DNA from: a virus
IMG/VR virus record: IMGVR_UViG_3300034980_000795
Span: 1-23,720 of that record
Strand: one strand, 5' to 3'
Length of the DNA stretch: 23,720 nt
The notes under the pieces were generated by a model that worked only from the letters and a program-made list of their open reading frames with translations, did not search any database and had not been told where the DNA came from. Position 1 is the stretch's first letter. Every line of letters starts with the position of its first letter. A program made the position numbers and the translations under genes. Positions 977 to 18,615 of this stretch are shown in pieces.

Positions 977-1308
977 CGATCGTCCCTGCCCCGCAGGAAT
1001 TGGATCAACCTCTCGACCAGCCCATTCGGGTGCGTCTTGAACTGCTCAGAGAGCTCAATGAGCCCCTTGATGATGTTCTCGCCCATGATGGCTGAGGCCG
1101 ATGCCGCAGCCAGGTCCCAGCCAGGGGGCGTGCCAAACTCTTTGGCCAGCCAACCGCCCAAAAACCCTGTACCGACCGCGACAGGCCAGGTCACCAACGC
1201 GACCTTCCAGCTCTGTCGCCCAATGATCAGGGTCCGCAATGTCCCGGTCAGGGCCGATGCAATACCGATCGGGATAAATTCGGGCGGAATACGAAAATTC
1301 TCGAACAT
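973..1308 (-). CDS. Holin-like small membrane protein
   Basis: A 111-residue protein with three hydrophobic stretches, roughly residues 11-30, 36-55 and 66-82, then an amphipathic and strongly charged C-terminal tail ending RGRDDR. Size, topology and position directly before an endolysin fit a phage holin, which forms holes in the inner membrane to release or activate the endolysin. The ATG at 1308 is preceded by AAAGGA with about 6 bases of spacing. About 25 bases upstream of the ATG is the 3' arm of a strong hairpin with a run of six T on the coding strand, so the lysis genes are set off from the tail operon. The family cannot be named firmly from sequence alone. The assignment rests on context and topology. 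Confidence 0.65.
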   Translation of the reverse strand: MFENFRIPPEFIPIGIASALTGTLRTLIIGRQSWKVALVTWPVAVGTGFLGGWLAKEFGTPPGWDLAAASASAIMGENIIKGLIELSEQFKTHPNGLVERLIQFLRGRDDR

Positions 1309-1327
1309 CGGAAATCCTTTCAGGCAT

Positions 1328-1351
1328 AAAAAAGCCGCCTCGATGGGCGGC
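1328..1351 (-). terminator. Rho-independent terminator or intercistronic hairpin before the holin gene
   Basis: On the transcript strand there is a perfect 6-bp stem GCCGCC/GGCGGC with loop CATCGA followed by six T. It lies 58 bases after the stop of the large tail protein and its 3' arm ends 25 bases before the holin start. Loop and downstream context resemble the hairpin at 18581-18604. Confidence 0.8.
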
Positions 1352-1409
1352 CGGAGGGTTTCGATTAACGGCGCAGTCTACCGCCACCTCAAATTCGAAA
1401 ACGTGAAAG

Positions 1410-4400
1410 CTAGGCGGCCAGTTGAAGCTGCGCGCCCGCGCCAATTCCTCGTCCAAATGACGCGCTCATCTGATAAACGACAATATTGATATTTGATGGT
1501 ACGCTTCCAAAATCATCCACTAGCTGTGCTGACGGATAGGTCACCATCTCAGATTTTGAAGTCAGTGTTCGAAGCACAACCGCGCCATTCAGGATGTCAA
1601 TTTCATAGGCTTCGGTATCTTCACTAAGTGGCACTTCTGACAAACTCCAACCATCACCACCGATCCGCGTGCGTCGAATCCAATGGATCAAGAGATCACC
1701 GGTGCCATTCGTTTCAGCTCCGACTTGAACAGGCGACAGTGGCCGCAGCCCTTTACCAAGAAACGCTAGGCGATCACTTGCCGCATAGGCCGGATCGGTG
1801 ATCACTGTACCTTCGGGCCCATAGCGCCAATTTAGCTCAAGCCCCAATTCGTCAAGGCTGACCTCGAGAGGCACGACCGCACTCGACAGCAGCACAAACC
1901 TTGCGCCCGCTGCGATAGGAGATTGCATGGCATGCTCGGTGCCGTGTTGCCCTCGCAAGAGCCTGGTCAATTTATAGTGTCCGGGAGAGATCAACTCGGC
2001 ATCGACAAACGAAACCAGCTCAATTTCCCCAACGCCATTGATCACGGCCGCGAGGTTTGAACCCGCGAGGATTTCGGCATCAGACTTCGATGACAATGTG
2101 CCATCGTATAAATCAACCCAAAGCTCATTGCCGTCATCCCAACGCCCGGCCGGTCCCTCGTAAAGATCAAAGGCCAGCACACCAATTTTCGCGGCTTGCG
2201 AAAGGCTCTGTTGCAATACGAAGCCTGATTGAGATTGGCTTTTCCAAAACTGAATTGCGCCCGGCCAAGGCGAGGAATATGCCGCCACATACGGCCGGTG
2301 CAAATCTGTTGTAGCGGCAAGAATCGGCCCATCCAGGAACACCACTTCAGGCGGACCATAAACCACAGGAGCAAGCATAAACGAAGCACGACTTGTGCCA
2401 TTATTCGGAGTGTAAAGCGCAGCGTCATAGCCCGCGAGTTCAACCGGCCTGGCACCCGCGTCGCGCGTTGAAACGACCAGGAAGTCTCGCGAGTATCCAC
2501 CCAGTGTCAGGTCGACAACATCGGTCGCTTCAATTGCAATCATCGAGGGAGCCAGCGCTATGCTCATGCGCTCACGGGCGCGCCATTGTTCCATCAGCCA
2601 GGATTGAGCGATCGCCGAAGCCTGGCCTGAATCGATTGAGAGATTGAATGCGCGGGTCGTAACCCGCTTGGAGAGCCCCGCTTGCCTTTGAGCTTCAACG
2701 GTCAGGTTTCCATAATCATCATCACCATCAACAAAGGTGAAGCGCGCCATCATTGGCAATTCTGTTTCCTGCCCCCGCGTTGCTTCCCAGTCGGACGAGT
2801 TCCCATCCAAAGCAACCACATCATCTTCAGTCAAAGAAATTGCCGCGTCCTGTCCGCGATGCACAAATTTGATCTCAGCGCCGCTTTCAACAGCGTCGAA
2901 ATTAAAGGCCAGCATTAGCGGTTCCAGGCTGGCTCGCACGCTCTCAACGTCATTGATGATGTAACCATTCACGACCCCGTTTAAATTGACGACATTGAGA
3001 TCAATGAAGTCGGCAGAGGCCGCAATTTCCGTCACGATTGCGGCCAGATCGCCGCGCCCCATCCTTCCGGTGATCCAGTGACCCAGTGACCAATTCTCGC
3101 CATCGCTCCAAACGTCAAGCCGATTAGGGAAATCGGGATAAGGCCTTGCATCCCAGGCCCAGATATAGACGCGGTTAACATCGATCATCGGCGCGGCATA
3201 AACGGATGATGTCGGATTATTGCCGCTGGCAACCTCGAAATACGTCAATGACGCTTCGATGAATCGCCTCTGCATCAGATCGTCACGATTGCCTCTCGAG
3301 TAGAATGGTACCGCGCTCTCTGAAGACTTCGGATCAACAAACACATTGGGCTGGTTAGCCCCCTTGTCGACAGATGGACAGCCGATCTCCGTGAACCAGA
3401 TCGGCTTTGATTGCGCGATCCAACTTGTCGGCGATCCATTCTTCACACCAGACGGCCGATCATGGTGCGCGTTGAGCCACCAGTTTTTGATATCCTTGTA
3501 TCGAAAAACCCAGGGTTCACTATAGGCACCATCGGTTATCGTGGTTCGCGCTTGAGCGTCGCGAGCGGCTTCGCTGGCATAATACCAATCATAACCCTCA
3601 CCGCCCTCGATATTCGATTGCAGATAGCCGCGATCATAAATCGAATCCCAACCGCTCAACGCGTCAATGTGGCCTGCGCCATCGCGCCAATCTGAAAGCG
3701 GCATGTAATTATCAATGCCGATAAAATCGGTGTTCGCATCTGACCAAAGCGGATCAAGATGAAAGAAGACATCGCCGGAACCATCGGCCGGATGATGGCC
3801 GAAATATTCAGACCAGTCAGCCGCGTAAGACAAATTGACCGACGCCCCAACTATCGCGCGCACATCAGCCAGCAATGTGATCAGTGCGGCAACAGCCGGG
3901 TAAGCGCCGGTGTTGTCTCGAATTTGTGTCAGCCCGCGCATTTCAGATGCGATCAAGAATGTGTCGACGCCACCCGCCGCCACGCACAGTTTTGCATAGT
4001 GAAGAATGAAGCGGCGAAAGCCCCAATCAGCGCCGCCCGTCCAGGACACAACTTCACCGTTGACGGAAAAGTCCGCCGCTACGGCAGAGCCGAAAAAGCT
4101 TGTGACTTGCGTGGCTGCAGCGGCGGTCTTGTCGGCTGTTCCCGCTTGTCCGGCCGCAGGCATGCAGGTGATGCGACCGCGCCAAGGAAAGGCTGATTGC
4201 TCAACGCCGCCATAGGGATCGGTCAAGGCATTGCCGGTTGGAACGTCCATCAAAATGAATGGGTAAAACGTGACGACATAGCCGCGAGCCTTTAGCTCCT
4301 GGATCGCCGCAACAACACAACCATCCGAAGGTGTTCCGCCATAAACCGCCTTGCCGTCAGCATCGACCGACATGAGGTGCGCGTTCGCACGATCGACAGC

Positions 4401-5330
4401 ATTTACAAGCCAGGTTTCGGGCGATGTAGTCTTGCTCAAAAGCTCAACCCCAGGCCTAAACTCGATGTTGCCGCATCGCAGGTCATCACCGAACCAGGTC
4501 ACGACCAGGGCGACATTGCCAACGCCCGGCAATTCATCACCGAGCTGATCCAGGGCCACCAGCATGTCAGGCTTACCATGCAATGAGTGAATGGTTTCCG
4601 GCGCAACACGGCCAGGCCCTAACTCTTGAATGATGACTTGATCGGAATAGACGAATTCTCCCGAAGCCGGAATGAGATCAACGGCCTTAATCAGACTTTC
4701 GGCCTTGTCACTTCCGCCCGCGCTTTTGATAATCTCAACATTGATTTGCGGAATTCTATTTCCAAACTCTTCAAGCTCAAGGTCTTCAAAAACGATATAG
4801 GCAAGGCCGCGATATGCCGGAACATAATCGCCACCTTCAATAGATACGATGAGAGGATCGGGCTCTTGTGTCTCGTCACCTTTATAAACCCGGTAGGTGA
4901 CATTTTGGAGATCAAACGGCTGACCATCAGCCCATAAACGACCGATGCCGTCGATCACACCTTCGCAAAGCCCTATCGCGAAGCTGGCAGAATACAGATA
5001 GCTAGTCGTGGTAGCACCGCCGCCACCGCCGCCCTTGCCGCCGCCTTGGGTTTCCGTGACCTGGCGCTCGCGAAAGTTGGTTGCCCAAATACATTGCCCG
5101 CCGACACGCATCCGCCCGAACAAGCGCGGAATGCTGGCCCCTTCTGTCGACGCCAGCGCATGCAGGTTTTCTAGGCGCGCTCCATAGGCACGTTGCTCTG
5201 TGCCAAAAAGCGCATTGTCGATCGCAGAACCAGCCAAGGCCGCACCGGCGTTTAGGACCGACTGCATCAGGACATTATTCATGCCGCTTGTTGCGGCTTG
5301 AGAAGCAATGGTTAGAGCGATTTGGGCCAT
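1410..5330 (-). CDS. Large tail tip / host-specificity protein, GTA gp15-like, with TIM-barrel-like domain
   Basis: A 1306-residue protein matching the architecture of the GTA ORFG15 tail protein, which forms the distal tail tip and contacts or degrades the host surface. The N-terminal part (residues 1-90) begins with a short hydrophobic alanine-rich region. A glycine run lies at about 96-105. A phage-tail domain spans about 110-420. A glycoside-hydrolase-like TIM barrel covers about 430-740, with ASEMRGL near 461, FIGIDNYMPLSDW near 536-548 and PIWFTEIGCP near 643-652 (Glu648 is a candidate catalytic acid). The C-terminal half is beta-rich and ends in a typical phage tail/Rcc01698-like region. 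The start ATG at 5330 overlaps the NlpC/P60 gene by 19 bases, and no good Shine-Dalgarno is visible, so translational coupling is likely. It is the last gene before a terminator. Length is close to that of GTA homologues. Confidence 0.9.
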   Translation of the reverse strand: MAQIALTIASQAATSGMNNVLMQSVLNAGAALAGSAIDNALFGTEQRAYGARLENLHALASTEGASIPRLFGRMRVGGQCIWATNFRERQVTETQGGGKGGGGGGATTTSYLYSASFAIGLCEGVIDGIGRLWADGQPFDLQNVTYRVYKGDETQEPDPLIVSIEGGDYVPAYRGLAYIVFEDLELEEFGNRIPQINVEIIKSAGGSDKAESLIKAVDLIPASGEFVYSDQVIIQELGPGRVAPETIHSLHGKPDMLVALDQLGDELPGVGNVALVVTWFGDDLRCGNIEFRPGVELLSKTTSPETWLVNAVDRANAHLMSVDADGKAVYGGTPSDGCVVAAIQELKARGYVVTFYPFILMDVPTGNALTDPYGGVEQSAFPWRGRITCMPAAGQAGTADKTAAAATQVTSFFGSAVAADFSVNGEVVSWTGGADWGFRRFILHYAKLCVAAGGVDTFLIASEMRGLTQIRDNTGAYPAVAALITLLADVRAIVGASVNLSYAADWSEYFGHHPADGSGDVFFHLDPLWSDANTDFIGIDNYMPLSDWRDGAGHIDALSGWDSIYDRGYLQSNIEGGEGYDWYYASEAARDAQARTTITDGAYSEPWVFRYKDIKNWWLNAHHDRPSGVKNGSPTSWIAQSKPIWFTEIGCPSVDKGANQPNVFVDPKSSESAVPFYSRGNRDDLMQRRFIEASLTYFEVASGNNPTSSVYAAPMIDVNRVYIWAWDARPYPDFPNRLDVWSDGENWSLGHWITGRMGRGDLAAIVTEIAASADFIDLNVVNLNGVVNGYIINDVESVRASLEPLMLAFNFDAVESGAEIKFVHRGQDAAISLTEDDVVALDGNSSDWEATRGQETELPMMARFTFVDGDDDYGNLTVEAQRQAGLSKRVTTRAFNLSIDSGQASAIAQSWLMEQWRARERMSIALAPSMIAIEATDVVDLTLGGYSRDFLVVSTRDAGARPVELAGYDAALYTPNNGTSRASFMLAPVVYGPPEVVFLDGPILAATTDLHRPYVAAYSSPWPGAIQFWKSQSQSGFVLQQSLSQAAKIGVLAFDLYEGPAGRWDDGNELWVDLYDGTLSSKSDAEILAGSNLAAVINGVGEIELVSFVDAELISPGHYKLTRLLRGQHGTEHAMQSPIAAGARFVLLSSAVVPLEVSLDELGLELNWRYGPEGTVITDPAYAASDRLAFLGKGLRPLSPVQVGAETNGTGDLLIHWIRRTRIGGDGWSLSEVPLSEDTEAYEIDILNGAVVLRTLTSKSEMVTYPSAQLVDDFGSVPSNINIVVYQMSASFGRGIGAGAQLQLAA

Positions 5331-5791
5331 GAGTCAGGAAACCTATAAGCGAACGCTGTTCGCGCCTTGAGCGCACGATCAAGCTTTCGGCGCGCTACGC
5401 CGCCTATTTCTCGTGCATCGATTATTTGCCCGTCGCGCCACGGCTTACCGGGTTTGCTGGTCGGACATTCCAAGATGGCGATATGCTTTGCAGGCGGCCG
5501 GCGCATCATCGCGAACAAAAACAAGTCGCCGGCAATAGCCTCTTCAATGGGCACAGCCGTAAATACTTTCGCCAAGCCTTCGGAGAATTGCTCTTTGCCT
5601 TCGACTTCGTTCCAGTCGCGCGTATATCGCGGCAAGGCCTGTGCAGGGAGTCCGTACACATCGCTAATGATCCCACAGATCAAGCCGAGACAATCGGCCC
5701 CTACACCTCTCCTGGAGGCTCGGTGATGATACGGCGTCTGGAGCCATTTGTTCGCGGCGGTCAAAACGCTGAGCCGCATCGCCGAACTCAT
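5312..5791 (-). CDS. NlpC/P60 family tail peptidase, GTA gp14-like
   Basis: A 159-residue cysteine peptidase of the phage/GTA NlpC/P60 type, a tail-associated enzyme that opens peptidoglycan during DNA entry. The catalytic Cys is in GADCLGL (Cys34), and the His is in AKHIAIL (His103). The ATG at 5791 is chosen because it overlaps the stop of the DUF2793 gene as ATGA. The same frame runs open further upstream to 5944, but those residues duplicate DUF2793 coding sequence and look non-coding. Its place between the DUF2163 hub and the ORFG15-like tip protein is the standard GTA order, apart from the inserted DUF2793 gene. The 3' end overlaps the next gene by 19 bases. Confidence 0.88.
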   Translation of the reverse strand: MSSAMRLSVLTAANKWLQTPYHHRASRRGVGADCLGLICGIISDVYGLPAQALPRYTRDWNEVEGKEQFSEGLAKVFTAVPIEEAIAGDLFLFAMMRRPPAKHIAILECPTSKPGKPWRDGQIIDAREIGGVARRKLDRALKARTAFAYRFPDSWPKSL

Positions 5792-6525
5792 GATTGCGGA
5801 ACCGTTGGCATGTAGTAGCAAATCGCGATGCGAACCGATCCGTCCGTGAAGTTGCCGCCGCTCGCCGTCAAACGGATTGGCGTGTCGGCGTAGAACGCAG
5901 TCGGGCCGATGACGCCAAGATTGACCCCATTCAGGCCAGACCAAAGACCCGAGCCAAACTTGGAGACCTGCGATGCGGTGCCGACGCTAAAGCTCGAAGC
6001 CCCGGTGATCGCCAAAGTCACACGCTCGGACACGTTGAAGACGATGGCCCCATTCGGAATTTGAATTGATGAATCCACATAGGCCCCGGACAGGCCCGTC
6101 AACTCCTCTTCGACAACTTTCAGCTCGAGAGCCGCGCCGTTGGCGCTGGTAAGCTTGAAGGCCTTGAACGTTTCAAACAGCTCACTTTCAAGCTCCCAAG
6201 CAGAACCCGTCCAGACAACGAAATCGGATTCATCCGCGACGAAAAAGCGCCAACCATTGCCAGGCGTAATAAATTGCCAGGAGCCATCGCGATAATACGC
6301 CAGATGCAAATCCGTTTCGCTGCCCCATTCGGTGCCGGTCTTGCCCGCTGGCATGATGTAGAGAACACCGTCGACAGGCGAACCAGGCTCGGCACTTGTT
6401 GACCTGGACGCCGCATCACCTTGAATCAGACCATCAAGCAAACGCAGCGCATCATTGACCGTGACATGCTTTTGAGATTGGGAAGCCGAGAGATAGGTGA
6501 GTCCCAAATTTGCTGATGTCGTCAT
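5788..6525 (-). CDS. DUF2793 tail protein, probable tail fibre or receptor-binding component
   Basis: A 245-residue protein with the DUF2793 signature at its N-terminus: LGLTYLSASQSQKHVTVNDALR near residues 7-28, then a beta-rich GTEWGSE...LAYYRDGSW region. The C-terminal 90 residues, ending CYYMPTVPQS, are beta-rich and low in charge, as in short fibre or receptor-binding domains. The start is set at ATG 6525, because AGGAG lies 8 bases upstream. A TTG at 6531 would leave only about 2 bases of spacing. The gene sits between the DUF2163 hub and NlpC/P60 genes, where the classical GTA cluster has no gene. DUF2793 proteins are known as phage or GTA-associated tail proteins in alphaproteobacteria. 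A host-recognition role is inference. Confidence 0.85.
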   Translation of the reverse strand: MTTSANLGLTYLSASQSQKHVTVNDALRLLDGLIQGDAASRSTSAEPGSPVDGVLYIMPAGKTGTEWGSETDLHLAYYRDGSWQFITPGNGWRFFVADESDFVVWTGSAWELESELFETFKAFKLTSANGAALELKVVEEELTGLSGAYVDSSIQIPNGAIVFNVSERVTLAITGASSFSVGTASQVSKFGSGLWSGLNGVNLGVIGPTAFYADTPIRLTASGGNFTDGSVRIAICYYMPTVPQS

Positions 6526-6536
6526 GCTCAACTCTC

Positions 6537-7463
6537 CTATTCTTCAAAGTAGACATCGCCGCCATCGCCGCGACCGTGCCGAGAGCCACCCGAATTGGCG
6601 TTCTTGCGCTTGGCGATTTGTGTCATCGTTGCATCGCCAGGCATCAGCACAGCATGCCCACGAAAATTATTGATGTTGGAGAAGCGAACGCCGCACGTTA
6701 CGAGCTGCTTGTCGCAACCGGCCGTGAGAGTGAACGTGTCGAAGACAGCTATCTGATCGGGCGGGCGATCCCACAGCTCGAGCGAGACGACGCCACCGAG
6801 ACTTGAATGAGATCGAACATCAAAGCGACGGCCGGAATTTGTCCCGCTGGTGAATGTCAAAAGCCCGAATGTGAAGACCGCATCAGAAAAACCAGAAAGA
6901 CCGCTTGCTGTAAAAATTCGCTCATTCTCCAGCGTAGAAATTGCCCCGGTTCCCGCGTGCGCCGCATCGGTGAGATCAATGCCGCATTTGGCATCGCCAA
7001 GCACCGCGCCGCATGTCGGTAAATATTGTTGCCCAACGGGTTGATTGAGCCGCGCCGATAAGCCGCGCACTTCGGCTTCAAATCCGATTGGCCCGCGGCG
7101 AACCTCGCCGAGGTTTCCCTTGATCATTTGGACGAAAAGGGTTGGTTCTTCCCAGTCGACCCGCCAAATTTCAATTTCCGCATCATCGTACCGGCCAGCC
7201 TGAATATCCGACTCCTTGATGCGAAAGGAGGAGAGCGCGCCGAAAACTTCCAGGTTATCGGTTGCCAAACCGAGCGAGCCCTTGATCTCACTGGCTGTCA
7301 AACCGGTTTGCGGGCTGAATTTTATTCCTTCTACGAACAGAACTTGGTCATGATCGGTAAAACCCATCACTTCGCCATCGGACAGGGAGATTTTGAAGCA
7401 CCAGCACAAATTTGCTGTGCCGGCCTCCAGCTTTGATCGAAGTGGAAGCGGAACATACCTCAT
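6537..7463 (-). CDS. DUF2163 / BR0599-family tail hub protein, GTA gp13-like
   Basis: A 308-residue protein of the GTA ORFG13 family, which forms the baseplate hub under the distal tail protein. The N-terminal DUF2163 region (about 15-165) includes MGFTDHDQ and ASEIKGSLGL. The C-terminal phage_BR0599 region carries four cysteines: Cys151 (LPTCGA), Cys160 (AKCGI), Cys250 (AGCDK) and Cys257 (VTCGVRF). In siphovirus and GTA hub proteins such cysteines hold a 4Fe-4S cluster. All four are kept, so a cluster is expected here too. The ATG overlaps the stop of the DUF2460 gene by 4 bases (ATGA). The C-terminal tail is Gly/Arg/Asn-rich (about 286-303). Confidence 0.92.
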   Translation of the reverse strand: MRYVPLPLRSKLEAGTANLCWCFKISLSDGEVMGFTDHDQVLFVEGIKFSPQTGLTASEIKGSLGLATDNLEVFGALSSFRIKESDIQAGRYDDAEIEIWRVDWEEPTLFVQMIKGNLGEVRRGPIGFEAEVRGLSARLNQPVGQQYLPTCGAVLGDAKCGIDLTDAAHAGTGAISTLENERIFTASGLSGFSDAVFTFGLLTFTSGTNSGRRFDVRSHSSLGGVVSLELWDRPPDQIAVFDTFTLTAGCDKQLVTCGVRFSNINNFRGHAVLMPGDATMTQIAKRKNANSGGSRHGRGDGGDVYFEE

Positions 7464-8101
7464 TCACCAACCACCTCCACAAGTGAGATGTCGGGATACG
7501 CCCCCAAGCTACCCGTCTGCAAATTGGCGGGAAGATGGTCCGCGTCGAATCGGACCGGTACATCAAATTCAAATCCGGCACTGACCAACTCACCTTGCGC
7601 AGGCACTGATCCAGGCAAGAATGTGACCGCGCCAGACAACGCGTCGATTGAGAAATCGGAACCAATCGTTTTCTCAACACCAGCAACTGCTACCCGCACG
7701 CTTGCTGGTATCGGCTTGGTGATCGGGCGGTTCCAGGATGCGCTGCCTGAAGTATAGAGTTTTGTCAGATAGAAACAGGTCAGCACTCCGTCCCCAAAAC
7801 CTACTTCTTGATCCTCGGGGCTGATCGGTTCGAGTGATCCACAGGATTTAAAATCGGCCCAATCCTTGAAGCGAAACCCGTACCGGCGACCTCGTCGAGC
7901 ATTGAAGAACGCTGTCACTAATTCAAGTTCGTCAAGCTGATGAATGCCATAGCCAATATCGTAACGCTGCCTGGCATTTGCCCAAGGCGAATTGCGTTCC
8001 TCGCGACCACTGGCTAGCGCAACAATCTCGGTGCGCCATTGAGGTCCCCCCTTGGCATTAAGGGCTATATCGACGGGAAATCGTACGTCATGAAAGGTCA
8101 T
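7460..8101 (-). CDS. DUF2460 distal tail protein, GTA gp12-like
   Basis: A 213-residue protein of the DUF2460/TIGR02217 family, the distal tail ring that joins the tube to the hub. Characteristic motifs are FPVDIALNAKGGPQW near the N-terminus, GREERNSPWANAR (33-45) and FFNARRGRRYGFRFKDWADF (65-84), with GYEFDVPVRFD-like residues near the C-terminus. The ATG at 8101 comes 3 bases after the stop of the tape measure gene, so translation is coupled. The next gene overlaps by 4 bases. Length and position match GTA homologues. Confidence 0.93.
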   Translation of the reverse strand: MTFHDVRFPVDIALNAKGGPQWRTEIVALASGREERNSPWANARQRYDIGYGIHQLDELELVTAFFNARRGRRYGFRFKDWADFKSCGSLEPISPEDQEVGFGDGVLTCFYLTKLYTSGSASWNRPITKPIPASVRVAVAGVEKTIGSDFSIDALSGAVTFLPGSVPAQGELVSAGFEFDVPVRFDADHLPANLQTGSLGAYPDISLVEVVGE

Positions 8102-8104
8102 GGG

Positions 8105-11776: not shown

Positions 11777-11790
11777 TATACTTTCTCCAA

Positions 11791-11815
11791 AGAAAAACCC
11801 CGCACAGGGCGGGGC
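11791..11815 (-). terminator. Rho-independent terminator after the GNAT gene, before the tape measure gene
   Basis: The transcript strand has a CCCCGC/GCGGGG stem (6 bp, loop CCTGT) followed by five T, C and three T. It begins 32 bases after the GNAT stop codon, and its 3' arm ends about 21 bases before the tape measure ATG, so it sits just upstream of that gene's ribosome binding site. Confidence 0.8.
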
Positions 11816-11846
11816 TTGGTTGGTGTCAGGTTTGCACTCGGTGGAA

Positions 11847-12482: not shown

Positions 12483-12654
12483 CTGCTTCGATACGTCGAG
12501 CCAGAGCAGCCATGAGGGCCTTGTTGGGCCCTTTGCTCTTATTGTGTGTACGGCGCACGAACTCAAACGCCTCCCGAGAGGTTCGGAAGTGCGCTGTTGC
12601 AGTAGGACCGTTTCCGGCTCCAAAGAGTTTCATAAACCACGCCATAATACTCAT
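12451..12654 (-). CDS. Small basic protein of unknown function, partner of the GNAT gene
   Basis: A 67-residue open frame, ATG at 12654 (a second ATG at 12645 would give 64 residues). The N-terminus is hydrophobic (MAWFMKLFG). The rest is basic and probably helical, with AHFRTSREAFEFVRRTHNK and a lysine/arginine-rich end RRSTKRTA. I do not recognise a family. It is not an obvious ribbon-helix-helix (DUF1778) antitoxin of the kind that usually pairs with TacT-like GNAT enzymes. No strong Shine-Dalgarno is visible. It overlaps the GNAT start by 32 bases, so the two are probably co-translated. It may be a GNAT partner or an independent small phage protein. Confidence 0.5.
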   Translation of the reverse strand: MSIMAWFMKLFGAGNGPTATAHFRTSREAFEFVRRTHNKSKGPNKALMAALARRIEADARRSTKRTA

Positions 12655-12707
12655 GAACGTATATTCCACATGTTGCTATTGCAAGCACTGTAACGCTTTG
12701 AGGTGAA

Positions 12708-12736
12708 CATAAAGTGTGTGAAACTCCCTATGACAA
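12708..12736 (-). promoter_or_regulatory. Candidate promoter of the accessory cassette
   Basis: On the minus strand TTGTCA (5 of 6 to the sigma-70 -35 consensus) is separated by 17 bases from TTTATG (a weak -10). It lies in the roughly 185-base, more AT-rich gap between the chaperone stop (12841) and the small gene start (12654). I see nothing else clear in that gap. This is a weak prediction from pattern alone. Confidence 0.25.
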
Positions 12737-12840
12737 CCCAACTGGTGTTACTGGGCAGTATTTCCAAGAGCTGCATACCAGCCATGTCATACCAACAACC
12801 TCTAACCAGCAATTATCTCCATTCTAACTGCAGACTGATT

Positions 12841-13155
12841 TTATACGCCCGAACTGGACCGCTTAATCCATGCCTTAAATGCCGAGTTTGTATGCTGAAC
12901 CATATTCTCGTCACCTAATATTTTCACCCGCTCCTGCTGTTCGCGTTTGGTGAATAGGCTGTCTAGTTGCACCAGCCGCTTTGATCTGGAAAACGCCTCC
13001 CCATACCAACCCGATACAATCGCATTATCTCGGCGCTCCTGACGAATTCGAACAAACGCAAAAACCGACTGCCTGGACGCGTATGGCGTCAGTTTCCAGA
13101 AGGCCTCCCAACCAAGCGGGCAAGCTTCAAGAAAGGCTGCCAGGTCGTGTGCCAC
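12841..13155 (-). CDS. Tail assembly chaperone, downstream (T-like) component
   Basis: The frame runs from a GTG at 13155 to TAA at 12841, 104 codons. Motifs such as LGWEAFWKLTP (residues 14-24) and GWYGEAFSR...KRLVQLDSLF (48-69) resemble the small GTA/phage tail assembly chaperones that follow the tube gene. It overlaps the upstream chaperone by 67 bases in the -1 frame, and no Shine-Dalgarno precedes the GTG. It is therefore probably made, at least in part, as a frameshifted extension of the upstream protein, as with lambda G/GT. The true N-terminus is uncertain. It is the last gene before the accessory cassette interrupts the usual chaperone-tape measure junction. Confidence 0.7.
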   Translation of the reverse strand: MAHDLAAFLEACPLGWEAFWKLTPYASRQSVFAFVRIRQERRDNAIVSGWYGEAFSRSKRLVQLDSLFTKREQQERVKILGDENMVQHTNSAFKAWIKRSSSGV

Positions 13156-13487
13156 AAGGTCGCCAGTGCGCCGATCAGCTTTGGGCGCTCCTTCTCCTCC
13201 TCAGCGGCTATCTCTTCACCCCCAAACCATGCCCTGGCCCAGGCATCAGCCACTGCGGCTCTGGCCAGATCTACGGGTGGTGAAGTGTCGAGGACATGGT
13301 CACAGGACAGCGAACTGGCTGAAGCGATCAAGAAGGCCAGATCACCGAGGACCGGCGTGTTGATCGCCGCACTCATACGATCATCAAAGTCTTCACCCCA
13401 ATCGCTGCGAAGCTGATCAATCACCTGCCAGGTAAATTGAAGGCGATAGGTTTCGCCCTCAATCTCTATTGAACCGCAATCACGCAT
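13089..13487 (-). CDS. Tail assembly chaperone, upstream (G-like) component
   Basis: A 132-residue protein placed between the tail tube and the tape measure, the position of tail assembly chaperones that hold the tape measure before tube polymerisation. It begins with a beta-rich segment (SIEIEGETYRLQFTWQVIDQL) and continues with an alpha-helical region. The ATG overlaps the tube gene's stop by 1 base. Its 3' end overlaps the next chaperone frame by 67 bases in the -1 frame. The sequence is of the general GTA ORFG10/gene-transfer-agent-family type, but the assignment rests mainly on position. Confidence 0.72.
   Translation of the reverse strand: MRDCGSIEIEGETYRLQFTWQVIDQLRSDWGEDFDDRMSAAINTPVLGDLAFLIASASSLSCDHVLDTSPPVDLARAAVADAWARAWFGGEEIAAEEEKERPKLIGALATLWHTTWQPFLKLARLVGRPSGN
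13092..13098 (-). promoter_or_regulatory. Candidate -1 frameshift slippery site at the chaperone junction
   Basis: The transcript reads T GGA AAC immediately before the TGA stop of the upstream chaperone. It approximates the X XXY YYZ pattern: the YYZ part is AAC after AA, while the first triplet matches only partly. A stop codon directly after the site could favour slipping. I looked for a canonical heptamer elsewhere in the 67-base overlap and found none. Confidence 0.3.
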
Positions 13488-13924
13488 CAGACCGTCGGCG
13501 TGATGACGGCAGCGCCGGTTGGACGAAGCGTCATGGTCGCAGTCAACTTGCCCTCCATTTCAATGGGTCGGGTGACGCCTTTGACCAGCGCATCGAAAAC
13601 AATCTCCTCACCGGTTGCGCCATCATCTTCAAGCAGGGTGGCTTTGAATTTGAGAGCGTCACCACCGACCGCATCACGAAGTGCGTTGTGGTGGATATTG
13701 GCGAAAATCCAATTGATCTCAAAACTGGCTTCGTCAGCATCGATAAGCCCGTTGCGGTATTCCTTGCGATTGTCTGGAGAGGAAAACGTCGTGACCTCAT
13801 GGGTGTCAGACTTTTCCTCACCGGGATCGAAGGAATTGATATTGGGGATCTCGTTGTAAACCGTTCCGCCATCGGTGGAATATGACAGCGAGAAGTTCTC
13901 AGGCTTCATGATCAAGCCGCTCAT
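13487..13924 (-). CDS. Major tail tube protein
   Basis: A 145-residue protein of the phage major tail protein (TP901-1/GTA ORFG9) type, which polymerises into the tail tube around the tape measure. Features are FSLSYSTDGGTVYNEIPNI near the N-terminus, HEVTTFSSPDNRKEYRNGL (41-59), FEINWIF and the C-terminal GKLTATMTLRPTG strand. The ATG at 13924 has AGGAG 7 bases upstream, one of the clearer ribosome binding sites in the tail block, as expected for an abundant protein. A second ATG at residue 6 is also possible. It sits 10 bases after the tail terminator gene and overlaps the chaperone start by 1 base. Confidence 0.9.
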   Translation of the reverse strand: MSGLIMKPENFSLSYSTDGGTVYNEIPNINSFDPGEEKSDTHEVTTFSSPDNRKEYRNGLIDADEASFEINWIFANIHHNALRDAVGGDALKFKATLLEDDGATGEEIVFDALVKGVTRPIEMEGKLTATMTLRPTGAAVITPTV

Positions 13925-13934
13925 GGCGCACTCC

Positions 13935-14354
13935 TTAGTAGATCAGGGAAAGCTGGATTAGACGTCCGATCAGACTTTTATCGTCCGTGGGCGCATCAAC
14001 CGGTCCAGCGACGGTTGATTGATAGTGGGTCGAGCCAATGTCGAAGCTGCGGGCATCAAACAGGTCCGCGATCAGATCAGCGGCCAGATCGAGATTACCT
14101 GGGCCGGGATCGCTATTATCGATGCGGCGATAAAGCCGGATATTGAGATAAAGCGATCGGCCACGAACCGAGAAGTCATTGTCGGGTTCGACACGTCTTG
14201 GAACATCAATGACCAAGGCGGGTTCTGCGCCGACCTTGAAACCACCAGGAAAGCGCCCGTCAAAGATCGCTGGCCCGGCGTCATAGATCGCTACCAGAGC
14301 GCTAAGAGCCCCGCTCCCGAGCAGATAGTCGCGAACATCCTTGCTGGCGCTCAT
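13935..14354 (-). CDS. DUF3168 tail terminator / tail completion protein, GTA gp8-like
   Basis: A 139-residue protein of the DUF3168 family, which caps the tail tube and joins it to the head. Features are LLGSGALSALV near the N-terminus, PALVIDVPRRVEPDNDF (44-60), LYLNIRLYRR and GNLDLAADLIADLFDAR (86-102). The ATG at 14354 overlaps the stop of the upstream HK97 gp10-like gene by 1 base. Order and length match GTA ORFG8. Confidence 0.88.
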   Translation of the reverse strand: MSASKDVRDYLLGSGALSALVAIYDAGPAIFDGRFPGGFKVGAEPALVIDVPRRVEPDNDFSVRGRSLYLNIRLYRRIDNSDPGPGNLDLAADLIADLFDARSFDIGSTHYQSTVAGPVDAPTDDKSLIGRLIQLSLIY

Positions 14355-14776
14355 CAGCGTCCTGCGCCCTTCACAAAGGCGATGAAGATTTGATCCCGCC
14401 TCGCCTTCTCATCGCTTAAGCGTGAGGTGTGAGGGCGTGGTTTCATCTTCTCGGTCCCAAGTTCGGTCTCGATCGCGTGACGCGAGGATGCGCCAACACG
14501 CCCGACAATGGCTGAGCCTTCGCGGCCAACGGTGCTGGCGACGCTTTGAAGCAGATCACCGGTGTCGACGGCGGGTGCTTCACCAGGGGCAGAGGCTTGA
14601 TGGGTCTTGCCGCCCTTGCGCCTATAAATCCGCCCGGAACGCGCAGGCGGCACGCTGAGGATATCAACAAGCTGGGCTTCGCCATCTAGCGAAGCAGCCT
14701 TGATGCCGTCCGCGGCAACCTTGCCCGCTAATGCGATGCCCGCCTCGATCTTGAATTGGGTTTTGACCGCCACCAT
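14354..14776 (-). CDS. HK97 gp10-like head-tail connector / tail completion protein
   Basis: A 140-residue protein with the family signature HQASAPGEAPAVDTGDLLQS near its middle and a GRIYRRKGGKTH segment just before. These proteins act at the neck, joining head and tail. The ATG at 14776 is preferred: GAGGT lies 4 bases before it and it overlaps the upstream stop by 1 base. A GTG at 14779 would add one residue. The C-terminal EKARRDQIFIAFVKGAGR is basic. Confidence 0.88.
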   Translation of the reverse strand: MVAVKTQFKIEAGIALAGKVAADGIKAASLDGEAQLVDILSVPPARSGRIYRRKGGKTHQASAPGEAPAVDTGDLLQSVASTVGREGSAIVGRVGASSRHAIETELGTEKMKPRPHTSRLSDEKARRDQIFIAFVKGAGR

Positions 14777-15075
14777 CACGACCTCACATCACAAATGAAC
14801 ACGGGCCCGGACCTGACGACATCCTGAAGGATCCAGCTGCCCGATGAATGTTCGAGGCGATCACCCTGGATCGGCGCTGTCGTCAGACCAGCTGCCAGGA
14901 TGTTGAACTTTTGCCGTGAGCTGGGCGTTTGAATATCTGTTGCCAGAACAGAGGCCAAAACGGGCTGGGCCATAACTGAGATAACGCCGCCAGATTGGTG
15001 AAGCTGACAGGCATCGTAAAACGGCGCGCAGCTGGCACCCAAGGCCGCATTGAGCGCATCGCCAAAAATGCTCAT
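14776..15075 (-). CDS. Head closure (stopper) protein, putative
   Basis: A 99-residue protein between the DUF4054 and gp10-like genes, the position of the head closure protein that plugs the connector. Residues VLATDIQTPSSRQKF and LTTAPIQGDRLEHSSGSWILQD resemble small beta-barrel closure proteins. The family is not recognised with certainty. It starts 4 bases after the DUF4054 stop and its own stop overlaps the next start. Confidence 0.65.
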   Translation of the reverse strand: MSIFGDALNAALGASCAPFYDACQLHQSGGVISVMAQPVLASVLATDIQTPSSRQKFNILAAGLTTAPIQGDRLEHSSGSWILQDVVRSGPVFICDVRS

Positions 15076-15079
15076 CGCT

Positions 15080-15445
15080 TCACACCGTCAAGATCGTGGG
15101 CACATTGCGCCGCATCAATTCCAAAAAACGCCGGCCATAGGAGGTCACCGCCAGGACGTTGCCGTGTGATGTCTGATCACGCTGGACTGACAAGGGGCCG
15201 GATTTGAACCCCTTAAACGCCATCATCGGAGCGGTTTGCGCTTCGGGGTGAGAACCATGACCATCAAGGGTCAAGACATGCGCTCCGCCCAGCAAGATAG
15301 CGGGCGCAAAATCATCCTCGCTCCAGGTATCATCCACCCTGCGCGCACCCTCGAGGATACACGCCTCAACAACACCATCATCAACGCCGGCAAAGACCGG
15401 GAACCGTGATTTAAGGTCACTCGCTCCCGGGACCAGATAGGCCAT
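15080..15445 (-). CDS. DUF4054 head-tail adaptor protein
   Basis: A 121-residue protein of the DUF4054 family, which forms the adaptor ring under the portal. Characteristic segments are DLKSRFPVFAGVDDGVVEA near the N-terminus, DDTWSEDDFAPAILLGGAHVLTL (38-60) and the C-terminal YGRRFLELMRRN. It begins 3 bases after the stop of the upstream 143-residue gene, so it is translationally coupled. Confidence 0.85.
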   Translation of the reverse strand: MAYLVPGASDLKSRFPVFAGVDDGVVEACILEGARRVDDTWSEDDFAPAILLGGAHVLTLDGHGSHPEAQTAPMMAFKGFKSGPLSVQRDQTSHGNVLAVTSYGRRFLELMRRNVPTILTV

Positions 15446-15448
15446 CTA

Positions 15449-15880
15449 TCAGGCAGCTTTCTTGGCTTTGCCACGGCCACGACGTTTGGGTGTCACTGGG
15501 GTGGTGGTGGCTTTGGCGATGGGCTCGGCGGGGACGGCAGCGGGCGGTGTCTGATCTTGTTGAATAGGTGGCTGATCCTCACCGACTGAAGCGTCCTGCT
15601 CGGCCGTGTCTCCAGCTTCGCTCGTCTCAGGCAATTCCGGTTCTGGTTCGACTGGTTTCACCTCGTCCTTGATAGGAAGTGGGTGATCCAGGGCCAATTG
15701 CTCCTCATCAGCCACGACACTGATTTCCTTCGCATCGATACGCGCTTTTAGGCGTGGATGCTCTGGATCAACATCGAGATGATATTCACGGCCCGGCTCG
15801 AGCAATTTGGAGAATAGGGATCCGCGTTCTTTTGCATTGATGAAGCGTGGGCCCGGGGCATGATTTGTCACGTAGTACAT
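15449..15880 (-). CDS. Small head-region protein with acidic/proline linker and basic tail, unknown function
   Basis: A 143-residue protein of no recognised family. Residues 1-60 look folded (MYYVTNHAPGPRF, LEPGREYHLDVDPEHPRLKARI). Residues 65-120 are a low-complexity linker rich in Pro, Glu, Gln and Ala. The last 15 residues are strongly basic (KRRGRGKAKKAA). The ATG at 15880 has AAGGA 8 bases upstream and a 10-bp hairpin just before that. Its place between the major capsid and DUF4054 genes suggests a head or neck component, and the basic tail could contact DNA. Both are inference. Confidence 0.8.
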   Translation of the reverse strand: MYYVTNHAPGPRFINAKERGSLFSKLLEPGREYHLDVDPEHPRLKARIDAKEISVVADEEQLALDHPLPIKDEVKPVEPEPELPETSEAGDTAEQDASVGEDQPPIQQDQTPPAAVPAEPIAKATTTPVTPKRRGRGKAKKAA

Positions 15881-15903
15881 GGAAGAAATCCTTCTTCAAA
15901 CGC

Positions 15904-15932
15904 AAAGAGGCACCCCGATGGAGTGCCTCTTT
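15904..15932 (-). terminator. Intercistronic hairpin after the major capsid gene
   Basis: A perfect 10-bp stem (AAAGAGGCAC with GTGCCTCTTT, loop containing CATCGG on the transcript strand) lies 22 bases after the capsid stop, and its 3' arm ends 23 bases before the next start codon. The T run on the minus strand is short (3), so termination may be partial. It may instead stabilise the capsid mRNA. Confidence 0.65.
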
Positions 15933-15954
15933 TGCGCAGTGATGTTGGGTAGGT

Positions 15955-16902
15955 TTAGATGCCGTCCAGATACCGCATCTCTCGCGGTAGCCGCACATCC
16001 AGACCGCCCAGTCGCAAGATACCAGGCACTTCCCAAGTCGTTGGACCTGACTGCCACAAAGGCAAGAACTGGAAGGGCAATGGCATGTGCAAGGTAAGCA
16101 CTTCAGGAGAGCGACGATACGCCACCAGTCGGGCCACAGAGCCCTGCCCGGCCGTTTCCAAACCTCGAACGCCGCGGATGGTCAAAGGAAGCCCCGTCTC
16201 CATCGTGTAGGCGTTCTTTTCCACCACGAAGTCCAAAATGGTCTTGTCTGAATTTGTATGAAGCAGACGCTGACCAATATCGTGAAGCTGGGTGTAGGGC
16301 ACCAAAATGGTGTCCGCCAACGCCGTGGTATTGGTATCGGTGAAGATACCTGAAAGCACAGCATTGATATCGGCCAGGACATTTTGAGGCGTCTTGGTCG
16401 ACCATTCAGTCGCAGAACCGGTTCCTGTCGCAGCTGCATCACCATCAGTAACGGTGGCAGTGTTGACCAGGCCGGACATGCCCTTTGAAGCATCGCCAAA
16501 GAGCGCGATATTGTCTGTGAATTCCTCAGCAACACGGCGCGCGGCCATGCCCTTTGAAGCGGACAGGTTTTGACCCAATAGCTGAGCCTGGCCCACCTCC
16601 TGAATATCAAACCCAAAGCCGATACCCGCCATCGAGACTGTGGTCTCAAACTTGTCCCTGGTGATGTCAGCGTGGGGAATATCGCTGGCAGCGCCATTGA
16701 TCCAGGCGGCTTTACCGACATGGTCCATGGAGAAGTAGGTGATTGAAGGGACCCACGGATGGGCGGAGGTATCAACCGGGATCAAGGAGGGATAACGGAT
16801 CGCTGGATAGCGCGCCTTATAGACCTCGGTTTCGATATGAGACGCCTGTGAGATCATGAAGGCATGAGCTGACTGGGCGTCATAGTTTGGCATGTTGAGC
16901 AT
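15955..16902 (-). CDS. Major capsid protein, DUF2184 family (HK97-like fold expected)
   Basis: A 315-residue protein that I assign to the DUF2184 capsid family. Features are the N-terminal helix AHAFMISQASHIETEVYKARYPA (12-34), the segment HPWVPSITYFSMDHVGKAAWING (49-71), FGFDIQEVGQAQLLGQNL (97-114) and the C-terminal GPTTWEVPGILRLGGLDVRLP. The start is ATG 16902 because AAAGGA lies 6-7 bases upstream and the gap from the cement gene is then 13 bases. The same frame continues upstream to 17007, but that part overlaps the cement gene and looks non-coding. It lies directly after the protease/scaffold and cement genes, and a hairpin follows. Confidence 0.85.
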   Translation of the reverse strand: MLNMPNYDAQSAHAFMISQASHIETEVYKARYPAIRYPSLIPVDTSAHPWVPSITYFSMDHVGKAAWINGAASDIPHADITRDKFETTVSMAGIGFGFDIQEVGQAQLLGQNLSASKGMAARRVAEEFTDNIALFGDASKGMSGLVNTATVTDGDAAATGTGSATEWSTKTPQNVLADINAVLSGIFTDTNTTALADTILVPYTQLHDIGQRLLHTNSDKTILDFVVEKNAYTMETGLPLTIRGVRGLETAGQGSVARLVAYRRSPEVLTLHMPLPFQFLPLWQSGPTTWEVPGILRLGGLDVRLPREMRYLDGI

Positions 16903-16915
16903 GAGGTATCCTTTC

Positions 16916-17365
16916 TTATGCCAGACGAAGCACGCACAGCGCGCCTGAGGCGGCCGAGGTGTCGAAGATTGCGCCATCGATTGCGACATTGCCGGCAGCG
17001 ACCACATTGGTCAGTGCCCCTGTCGCCTCTACAAATAGAGCGGGTTCACCGGCAACGACTGTCGCACCAGCAAGTACCCAGACCGGGCCCTTGGTGATCA
17101 CGGCGACGTTGTCGTACTGGGCGTATTGATCGACGTTGTTTGGACGAACAGTCTTGTCCATCAACGTGATCCCGCGAAATGCCTTGCCGGCTTCAGAGAC
17201 ACGCACTTCATCATCGCCCACGCCTTGAACAGCAACGACACCAAAGCCGATACCCGCCGCCGTTTCGCAAATACGCGAGATGACCGTTGAAGGCTCAGAG
17301 CTTGCGATCATGCCGGCAACAGCGCTGACAGCTTGATCCAGATATGAGGTTTGAACGCTTGGCAT
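16916..17365 (-). CDS. Capsid cement / decoration protein, putative
   Basis: A 149-residue Ala/Val/Gly-rich protein, mostly beta-strand by appearance: GFGVVAVQGVGDDEVRV, GPVWVLAGATVVAGEPALFVE and VAAGNVAIDGAIFDT. It lies between the protease/scaffold and the major capsid genes, where many alphaproteobacterial phages encode a structural cement (Gp24-like) protein that stabilises the expanded head. GAGGG sits 7 bases before the ATG at 17365. The role is inferred from position and composition. Confidence 0.7.
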   Translation of the reverse strand: MPSVQTSYLDQAVSAVAGMIASSEPSTVISRICETAAGIGFGVVAVQGVGDDEVRVSEAGKAFRGITLMDKTVRPNNVDQYAQYDNVAVITKGPVWVLAGATVVAGEPALFVEATGALTNVVAAGNVAIDGAIFDTSAASGALCVLRLA

Positions 17366-17368
17366 GAT

Positions 17369-17944
17369 CTAACCCTCCTGGCTGTGGGCTTGGCTCATCC
17401 AGGCGTTTGAATTGCGATCCATCATGGCCTTGTGGGCCGCAACGGCTGCGCTCTCGCCTGTATCGCTGGTTTGGATGGTTTGACCGGAGACGACTTGTTT
17501 GACCGGATCGGCTTGGACCGCACCATCCTTGGCGAGATGATCAAACAAGCCGGTGACGTAATCATCGGACTTACCGTCGATGGTCTCGTCACCCAATTTG
17601 GCGATCACCGCACCGCGGCGGATTGCGACAAGCTCAAGGCCGTCGGTTTGGAGATCCTTGGCGATGAGTTTGGCCCGGGCGATGACGTCGGAGCGGTCTT
17701 TGACCATGCTATCAAGGGCGGACACATCAAGCTGCTCTGCTTTGAGCGTGGCGATCTGGGCATCCTTGGCACCCAACTCACCATCCTTTTGAGCGATCGA
17801 GGCAGTATGAACCTCGTTTGCAGATTTGAGCGCATCATTGGCCTCAATAAGCTGGCCTTGCAGCTTTTCGACGGCCTGGGCGCCCTGATCGGTGGTTTGA
17901 ATCGTAAGACCGTCAACGACGATTTCACGGAGCTTGTCAGACAT
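17369..17944 (-). CDS. Nested capsid scaffold protein from an internal start within the protease gene
   Basis: An in-frame ATG at 17944 would give a 191-residue protein equal to the C-terminal half of the DUF2213 protein. It is preceded by a perfect GGAGGT with 6 bases of spacing, stronger than the site used by the full-length gene. The encoded segment is a probable long helix (EKLQGQLIEANDALKSANEVH, SIAQKDGELGAKDAQIATLKAEQLDVSAL) typical of scaffolds, with an acidic C-terminal part and a short ending NSNAWMSQAHSQEG. This is the arrangement known for lambda C/Nu3, where the protease and scaffold share a reading frame. The scaffold role is inference from composition and position. Confidence 0.7.
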   Translation of the reverse strand: MSDKLREIVVDGLTIQTTDQGAQAVEKLQGQLIEANDALKSANEVHTASIAQKDGELGAKDAQIATLKAEQLDVSALDSMVKDRSDVIARAKLIAKDLQTDGLELVAIRRGAVIAKLGDETIDGKSDDYVTGLFDHLAKDGAVQADPVKQVVSGQTIQTSDTGESAAVAAHKAMMDRNSNAWMSQAHSQEG

Positions 17945-18559
17945 GAGCTGACCTCCTTGTTGATCGGGCGCAGTTAAGTTGGAACCAGCATCGACGGCGC
18001 GCCCGTCGCCGATACGGCATTGGTGTCCTGCGCGGCCGCGAGAGACGACTGCGAGGTGGTTGGCTTTGATGTTTCGCTGAACGGCGTCGTAGGGCTCGCC
18101 TTGATCTGTCTGACCCGGCGTCCAATCGATGTCGCAGGTGTAGCCAGCTGAGAGCTCTTGCTTGCCAGCCCGAACCTTCTCGATGACGTCCTGATCCATC
18201 AATGTGAGAGGCACACGGACGTAGCGAACATCGCCATCCTTTTCTTCGAGCACCTCATCACCGGTGGAGCCGACACTGACGCGTTTCCAATTGTCCGCTG
18301 AGACCATTTCTGGCGGGTGATCATCGGTCATCGGGCGGTGAGCAAAGGACCTCATGGTCGCGTCCGAGAAGACTTCATCACGCGGGCGATAGACGCGAAT
18401 GACATCGCTATGCCCCTCACCCATTTCCGAACCGAGATACTCCTGGATCCCCGTTCGAGCGATCCGGGCCTGACCAACCAGATAGCCGTCAGAGGTTATA
18501 CGAACGCCCTCCAGAACCACGCGATCGCGGAACCGGGCGTCTTTGGTGACAGAGGTCAT
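17369..18559 (-). CDS. DUF2213 prohead protease fused to scaffold domain
   Basis: A 396-residue protein. Residues 1-190 form the DUF2213 protease domain: RVVLEGVRITSDGYLVGQ, FAHRPMTDDHPPEMVS (His81 near its middle), GKQELSAGYTCDID (Ser137) and NIKANHLAVVSRGRAG (His168). These are the candidate catalytic His/Ser residues. Residues 206-396 form a helical scaffold region, also made separately from an internal start. The ATG at 18559 has AAAGG 7 bases upstream. The frame extends to 18658 but that part crosses a hairpin and the end of the upstream gene. The protease processes the scaffold and capsid proteins during head maturation. Most head morphogenesis genes of this phage are packed directly downstream. 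Confidence 0.85.
   Translation of the reverse strand: MTSVTKDARFRDRVVLEGVRITSDGYLVGQARIARTGIQEYLGSEMGEGHSDVIRVYRPRDEVFSDATMRSFAHRPMTDDHPPEMVSADNWKRVSVGSTGDEVLEEKDGDVRYVRVPLTLMDQDVIEKVRAGKQELSAGYTCDIDWTPGQTDQGEPYDAVQRNIKANHLAVVSRGRAGHQCRIGDGRAVDAGSNLTAPDQQGGQLMSDKLREIVVDGLTIQTTDQGAQAVEKLQGQLIEANDALKSANEVHTASIAQKDGELGAKDAQIATLKAEQLDVSALDSMVKDRSDVIARAKLIAKDLQTDGLELVAIRRGAVIAKLGDETIDGKSDDYVTGLFDHLAKDGAVQADPVKQVVSGQTIQTSDTGESAAVAAHKAMMDRNSNAWMSQAHSQEG
17951..17956 (-). promoter_or_regulatory. Internal Shine-Dalgarno GGAGGT for the nested scaffold start
   Basis: GGAGGT on the coding strand lies 6 bases before the in-frame ATG at 17944, inside the protease gene. Its match to the anti-Shine-Dalgarno is the best among the minus-strand genes here, and supports high-level independent initiation. 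Confidence 0.75.
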
Positions 18560-18576
18560 GGGATTGCCTTTCGGGC

Positions 18577-18604
18577 AGATAAAAGGGCCGCTCGATGAGG
18601 GCCC
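18577..18604 (-). terminator. Intercistronic hairpin/terminator between minor head and protease genes
   Basis: The transcript strand has GGGCC/GGCCC plus an inner CTC/GAG pair around loop ATC (one bulged C), followed by four T. The loop region reads CATCGA, as in the hairpin at 1328-1351. It starts 11 bases after the minor head protein stop, and its 3' arm ends 25 bases before the protease start. Confidence 0.7.
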
Positions 18605-18615
18605 ATGGCGTGTGT

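Follow-up and report, generated by a model that had tools for sequence, protein, structure and literature searches.

Hairpins directly ahead of ribosome sites at late-gene borders of a virus record and in other phage loci

How should hairpins that interrupt a phage late operon directly in front of the next gene be understood? This question is raised by IMG/VR virus record IMGVR_UViG_3300034980_000795, which was analysed over its whole length of 23,720 bases (hereafter the window) and in which the late genes are co-directed on the minus strand. Hairpins precede the holin gene, the tape-measure gene, a gene of 143 residues behind the major capsid gene (the post-capsid hairpin) and the head protease gene, each with the ribosome site of the next gene close behind it. 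A first-pass annotation, made from the sequence alone, took them for a repeated regulatory unit, with CATCG in or around the loop of three of them. We found that the four hairpins are real, yet they are not four equal copies and they differ in type. A hairpin placed before the next ribosome site looks like a general trait of late operons in phages, not a switch peculiar to this one.

Hairpin and ribosome site as neighbours in phage loci

The frequency of this layout was determined with a single definition of a strict terminator for all sequence sets (a stem of at least 6 base pairs (bp) with 5 G-C pairs, and 5 T in 6). In the viral loci, 84 of 274 strict terminators had a start codon and its Shine-Dalgarno sequence 16-27 nucleotides (nt) downstream, compared with 10 of 274 in an opposite-side control. 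Chromosome pieces (1.1 Mb) from a single alphaproteobacterial order, that of Pararhodobacter, which we take to be Rhodobacterales, gave 3 of 68, with 1 of 68 on the other side (p 1.5e-6 versus the viral loci). The viral loci are partly interrelated, and the 84 units correspond to 69 distinct protein starts. Two of the four viral groups had been retrieved by a hairpin pattern, and the retrieving matches were removed before the counts of 611 terminator-like and 274 strict hairpins were made; in the loci chosen by protein similarity only, 45 of 117 strict terminators were so placed (other side, 6). Gene starts were called by simple rules.

The same trend was seen when gaps rather than terminators were counted. 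Among same-strand gaps of 45-110 nt, a strong hairpin was present in 42 of 98 in the protein-chosen viral loci (9.2 expected by shuffling) versus 16 of 101 in the chromosome pieces (8.3 expected by shuffling), and a hairpin with a T-run in 26 of 98 versus 3 of 101. The distance from hairpin to start in the viral loci peaked at 18-22 nt (72/157), with a smaller peak at 32. On the other side, an upstream gene could be recognised for 63 distinct units, of which 41 begin less than 27 nt past its stop codon, a spacing that would roughly match the room between a terminating and an initiating ribosome if the footprint figures quoted in passages of PMC4824070 are applied.

The proteins encoded behind these units were compared with PHROG families for 65 of the 69 distinct downstream proteins (three endolysins and one short piece were left out). 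Among the 25 of 159 matched families that were listed, the major tail protein was the most frequent (10), followed by central tail fibre J (5), tape measure (5) and tail assembly chaperone (4). We found no paper in the open-access PubMed Central (PMC) literature that treats the hairpin-ribosome-site unit as a class.

The four hairpins of the window

The minus-strand late genes of the window include a first group (terminase, portal, MuF-like head protein, DUF2213 head protease, structural protein and major capsid protein) and a later part with neck and tail genes, an acetyltransferase-like gene, the tape measure, a tail protein of the gene transfer agent (GTA) type with 1306 residues, the holin and an M15 peptidase endolysin. 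Domain matches identified the gene after the 1333-1352 hairpin as Pfam Phage_holin_3_3, the gene at ATG 18559 as PHROG head maturation protease and Pfam DUF2213, and the gene at ATG 11776 as PHROG tape measure. The hairpins and the leaders that follow them are:

1333..1352, minus strand: holin hairpin, GGCCGCC-CATCGA-GGCGGCT, 7-bp stem with an outermost G-U pair, then a T-run; -13.6 kcal/mol
1309..1332, minus strand: holin leader with T-run, ribosome-site region TGCCTGAAAGG and spacer; holin ATG at 1308
11795..11817, minus strand: tape-measure hairpin, AAGCCCCGC-CCTGT-GCGGGGTTT, 9 bp, loop CCTGT, U-tract; -14.9 kcal/mol
11777..11794, minus strand: tape-measure leader with T-rich tail and ribosome site GGAG; tape-measure ATG at 11776
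15904..15932, minus strand: post-capsid hairpin, 13-base arms and a C-G-closed triloop ATC, folding to 17 bp with a bulge and having no U-tract; -27.5 kcal/mol
15881..15903, minus strand: post-capsid leader with ribosome site AAGAAGGA; ATG of the 143-residue gene at 15880
18585..18604, minus strand: protease hairpin, GGGCC-CTC(ATC)GAG-[C]-GGCCC, 5-bp outer stem, bulged C, then TTTT; -13.1 kcal/mol
18560..18584, minus strand: protease leader with ribosome site GAAAGG; protease ATG at 18559

All four units sit within the co-directed run of virion genes, in gaps of 56, 74, 70 and 101 nt, with 18-25 nt from hairpin to start. Counted from the G-C arm, the next start follows after 25 (protease), 23 (143-residue gene), 21 (tape measure) and 25 nt (holin), exactly as the first-pass annotation had given, and we agree with it that this leaves too little space for a promoter behind the hairpin. 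Between the upstream stop codon and the hairpin there are 11 nt at the protease unit (MuF stop), 22 at the post-capsid unit, 29 at the tape measure and 57 at the holin. None of the Rfam covariance models had a match in the window at the gathering score.

The hairpins had been described as terminator-like, which fits two of them well. The holin and tape-measure hairpins have a G-C rich stem of at least 5 bp with a U-tract at once behind it, as intrinsic terminators do. The protease hairpin is weaker, with a short outer stem, a bulge and only U4, and the post-capsid hairpin has no U-tract. Likewise, two terminator scans recovered only the holin and tape-measure hairpins of the four, both among the top entries. 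In a loose scan of bases 1-20,000 these were the third and first entries, respectively, of 23 sites; because shuffled sequences gave about as many (19.9, standard deviation 4.4), the number of sites carries no meaning by itself. Folding of the whole gaps gave a different ranking, with z-scores of -0.74 (holin), -1.49 (tape measure), -1.93 (protease) and -5.35 (post-capsid), and none of 200 shuffles of the post-capsid gap folded as well as the gap itself.

A hairpin in every wide late gap, as the first-pass annotation implied, is not quite what the window holds: all four hairpins are present where they had been placed, but a fifth wide gap (12,840-12,670, minus strand, about 170 bases) contains no such hairpin. 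This gap has a G+C content of 0.43, versus 0.56 for the window, lies upstream of a small open reading frame (ORF) and the acetyltransferase-like gene, and may be the edge of an inserted moron. The tape-measure hairpin lies directly 3' of that acetyltransferase-like gene, which may itself be a moron, and this is the kind of arrangement expected if the hairpins were chance structures or relict terminators of former morons that have no present role. We consider such an origin very improbable, given the excess of the units over shuffles and chromosome pieces and the conservation at the endolysin junction described below.

Two observations concern other parts of the window. Directly 3' of the tail tube gene, a pair of ORFs (13487-13089 and 13155-12841, minus strand) overlap in different frames; the position after the tail tube gene is the usual site of the tail assembly chaperone made by ribosomal frameshifting. 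At the other end, an ORF of 215 residues (23073-23720, minus strand) runs to the end of the window, shows hydrophobic stretches by eye and has no PHROG or Pfam match.

The holin and protease units had been singled out as alike, with leaders said to agree at about 21 of 28 positions. Our ungapped count is lower, 19 of 28. To judge this value, modules from the protein-chosen loci were paired such that their downstream proteins were non-homologous (882 pairs). The holin-protease alignment score of 41 was reached by 24 of these (2.7%) and the identity of 19/28 by 4 (0.45%), while a looser control that kept pairs with homologous downstream proteins reached 6.3% of 946 pairs. Since the window offers six possible pairs, the likeness is mildly unusual at most, and a weak tie between the two units is possible. 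The protease leader also contains a possible mini-hairpin at 18577-18565 (minus strand), TGCC(CGAAA)GGCA, which would cover the Shine-Dalgarno sequence GAAAGG; the related sequence in the holin leader is TGCCTGAAAGG.

Homologous junctions and loop classes

At the protein level, relatives found in public collections are roughly 40-55% identical to the window. Those retrieved through an alignment or through the tail protein were about 50% identical (among the matches listed, at least 80 loci each), and the capsid protein alone as query found no close relative in viral contigs. With relatives only about 50% identical, the four junctions of the window are beyond comparison at the level of bases, and we examined homologous junctions for the presence and form of hairpins instead.

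Hairpins are conserved at two junction families of the relatives, at the second of them in part. The first is the endolysin junction, where 22 of 23 distinct relatives with a readable start have a hairpin (1.4 expected by shuffling) and 21 of 23 have a T-run. In these relatives about 1.4 kb or more of other sequence separates the matched GTA-type tail gene from the endolysin gene, and it is the endolysin rather than the holin that follows the hairpin, which means that the lysis-gene border corresponds to that of the window and not the exact gene pair. The second is the post-capsid junction, where the stretch from the capsid stop to the following ribosome site contains a GGCCCC-type hairpin in 21 of 62 distinct relatives (from loci L087-L148), the remainder having unlike hairpins or no gap. 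In the 21 the hairpin follows about 7 nt after the capsid stop and, as in the window, has no U-tract.

The first-pass annotation had called for a search for compensatory changes in relatives. In the 21-sequence post-capsid family three pairs have changed on both sides, each in one sequence, and none of 500 shuffles had as many; slid controls gave 0 or 1. Further pair types were not above shuffles (89/500). The 21 sequences were selected by an expression that demands a CCCC/GGGG core, so that the 98.4% of paired cells is partly built in and only the five outer and inner pairs are informative.

These data bear on the possibility that the hairpins do not terminate at all and instead act as RNA processing or stability elements, guarding the upstream 3' end or marking sites of RNase cuts, with their closeness to the ribosome site keeping the next leader short. 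The long post-capsid stem without a U-tract, in a gap that folds far better than its shuffles, is what such a role would look like, as is the closely placed U-tract-free hairpin in the relatives with its three compensatory changes. Stability alone would need no T-runs, though, and these are present at the holin, at the tape measure and at nearly all of the endolysin-junction hairpins. We hold this account to be rather unlikely, if well worth keeping in mind.

We then considered the CATCG motif. Its presence in three of the four hairpins was confirmed (1345-1341, 15920-15916 and 18597-18593); in two of the three it is the C-G pair closing an ATC triloop. In the viral loci CATCG in or at the loop is rare: it occurs in 11 of the 611 terminator-like hairpins, in 3 of the 274 strict terminators and in 3 of 168 hairpin-ribosome-site modules. 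Such rates make three of four improbable by a naive calculation (p 2e-5), in which the motif had been picked after being seen. The loops of the modules follow preferences of their own, namely TNCG for 4-base, CNNGN for 5-base and CATNGN for 6-base loops. Of 19 six-base loops, 17 have C first, 12 A second, 12 T third and 15 G fifth. CATCGA fits the CATNGN class, and the C-G-closed ATC triloops of the post-capsid and protease hairpins come near it.

Relatives were expected by the first-pass annotation to conserve the CATCG loop, which they do not: at homologous junctions the stem is kept while the loop changes, and CTCGA, CTTGA, CCG and ATCCC were found there. CATCG as a conserved signal was thus rejected. 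The idea that CATCG is a loop used by terminators in the host lineage was also dropped: 8 of the 68 strict chromosome terminators have a six-base loop and none of these contains CATCG, with the reservation that the host may belong to another order.

An exact search of IMG/VR for the holin hairpin GCCGCC-CATCGA-GGCGGC returned 62 stretches in 47 distinct contexts. A T-run stood behind the CATCGA strand in 36 of the 47; 23 contexts had it on the CATCGA side alone, and 1 had it on the opposite side alone. A Shine-Dalgarno sequence and start codon within 50 nt accompanied 21 of those 36, versus 1 of 36 on the other side. Exact CATCGA hairpins with T-run and start elsewhere indicate that other phages have units of this kind as well. 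The exact search contained 31 CATCGA hairpins with five T, and the hairpin pattern scan had CATCGA in 0 of 121 matches listed. Fixed-stem matches were retained in the 168-module count, the loop-class tally and the 47-context set.

Could an RNA-binding or antitermination protein of the phage nevertheless recognise CATCG at three or four of the junctions, or could the holin and protease units go back to one regulatory unit by copying? Its presence in three of four hairpins, the leader identity that so few non-homologous pairs match, and the strongly one-sided T-runs in the 47 contexts would all fit. On the other hand, homologous junctions have other loops, CATCG is rare elsewhere, six-base loops favour C-A-T-N-G-N in general, and 24 of the 882 non-homologous pairs reach the holin-protease alignment score. 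Both ideas therefore appear highly doubtful to us, and we take CATCG to be a variant within a widespread class of loops and not a recognition site.

The 47 contexts also raise the possibility that the units are mosaic joints, that is, short border sequences kept because they permit a harmless exchange of whole genes. Hairpin units come and go between relatives, and such varying presence at one junction together with the wide distribution of one exact hairpin is consistent with exchange. Most units, however, have loops and stems too unlike for homologous exchange, and the compensatory changes suggest selection on structure and not on DNA identity. We regard this explanation as improbable.

Taken as a repeated regulatory unit, the proposal of the first-pass annotation thus survives in part: the layout of hairpin and ribosome site recurs in many phage loci and at the endolysin junction of relatives, but there is no conserved CATCG loop, the four hairpins are of different types, and what likeness may tie the holin to the protease unit is weak. 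Two further counts from the relatives should be mentioned. Units were found at 40 of 317 other genes downstream of the capsid gene (by a crude gene caller). Upstream of gene 6531-5788 (g247), the 80 bases before the start gave a hairpin by the loose test in 54 of 69 relatives versus 9.5 expected, with a T-run in only 4, and may be coding sequence.

Possible roles in the late operon

Judged from sequence and position, the hairpins of the window are probably ordinary intra-operon attenuators or mRNA 3'-end hairpins, a reading we hold with some confidence. They would be compact elements, sized for the space between one ribosome finishing the upstream gene and another beginning the next. The hairpins with a U-tract (holin, tape measure and, weakly, protease) would most likely act as leaky intrinsic terminators at which part of the polymerases stop. 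Such a partial stop would produce a step in mRNA amount and leave a stable hairpin at the 3' end of the upstream message. The remaining polymerases may read through, aided by a phage antitermination complex (as with GafZ in the passages of PMC11150451) or by a closely trailing ribosome, and the next gene would be translated from the ribosome site directly behind the U-tract. Because the post-capsid hairpin has no U-tract, a role in stability or processing is preferred over termination for it, and it more likely stabilises the message or marks it for an RNase.

The position of each hairpin may matter in addition to its sequence. In the passages of PMC4824070, the Escherichia coli tR2 terminator is repressed by ribosomes when it lies near the upstream stop codon and reaches full strength beyond about 27 nt. 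If this rule applied to the window, the hairpins closer to the stop codon (protease, 11 nt; post-capsid, 22 nt) would be weak and the more distant ones (tape measure, 29 nt; holin, 57 nt) strong, which could lower the expression of the lysis genes relative to the virion genes. Termination, read-through and an effect on gene dosage are in this sense inferred from the arrangement. Going further, it is conceivable, if speculative, that many phages use a standard cassette for late-operon gaps, in which a hairpin with a preferred loop (TNCG, CNNGN or CATNGN) is joined to a U-tract that doubles as ribosome-site spacer, the whole fitting between terminating and initiating ribosomes. Upstream translation and antitermination might then set the read-through, and dosage might be adjusted by hairpin position and not by extra promoters.

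Several results weigh against the reading of the hairpins as attenuators. Two of the four hairpins are poor terminators by sequence, and no antiterminator was recognised among the proteins searched of the window, which is itself a fragment. Whether homologous junctions have hairpins, a point on which the first-pass annotation had let its proposal depend, received a divided answer. The endolysin junction keeps its hairpin as described, and a stretch inside the endolysin coding sequence was also positive by the loose hairpin test in 12 of 23 relatives, which leaves only the T-run and the position to set that junction apart. The protease junction has a hairpin in 11 of 63 relatives, compared with 8.8 expected by shuffling, and a T-run in 4. 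With the same crude gene caller as above, 3 of 26 relatives had a unit before the tape measure and 2 of 58 a hairpin with T-run after the capsid gene. Lastly, our scan found no unit in the late regions of Mu and JBD26 and recovered only 1 of 7 annotated sites in HK97.

HK97 is a phage with Q-type lambdoid control. Its GenBank record NC_002167 lists these seven sites as putative late-strand terminators, each of which ends 5-13 nt before the next start. One of them follows the major capsid gene; the others precede the protease, the major tail subunit, the next tail gene, the tape measure, tail I and J. HK97 resembles the window in having late-border hairpins ahead of the head protease and tape-measure genes and behind the major capsid gene, and differs in their sequences and loops (the HK97 post-capsid loop is GAAA). 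In D3, where one terminator is annotated, our scan gave four units including the annotated one. In lambda (L413) a terminator-like hairpin at 6097-6118 precedes capsid gene E by 16 nt, and just after this gene there is a TTCG hairpin at 7163-7180.

Published descriptions of other phages contain similar elements. Salmonella phage L has a predicted terminator inside its single late operon (PMC8022706); unlike in the window, the passages of that paper name a single such site, where the procapsid module ends, and give no spacing to a ribosome site. In SPP1, a Gram-positive phage, late gene clusters are bounded by potential terminators according to passages of PMC6316719, comparable to the hairpins between late-gene groups here. 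Passages of PMC10134795 deal with terminators behind the capsid genes of LUZ100 and T7, and for LUZ100 describe an apparent strong terminator immediately 3' of the gene. This matches the terminator-like stem-loop directly behind the capsid gene in the window, with the differences that LUZ100 and T7 use a phage RNA polymerase and that the post-capsid hairpin of the window has no U-tract. The GTA cluster of Caulobacter crescentus, as presented in passages of PMC11150451, is an alphaproteobacterial phage-like structural cluster in which GafZ lets polymerase past the internal terminator terGTA. The GTA-type tail protein of the window adds to the likeness, whereas terGTA differs in being a tandem-repeat terminator and in standing behind the first gene of its cluster. 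Among the window proteins no relative of GafZ was noticed, and no search by name was made for one. From the precedents in HK97, D3, lambda, phage L and SPP1, we conclude that the window belongs to an already known kind of late-operon hairpins.

Late operons are usually drawn as one unbroken message. The counts presented here show that terminator-like hairpins fused to the next ribosome site often separate phage genes, and that they do so more commonly in viral loci than in the chromosome pieces with which these were compared. In the passages of PMC8022706, the authors of the phage L study call the roles of intra-operon terminators unknown, and the spacing found here makes this question directly testable.

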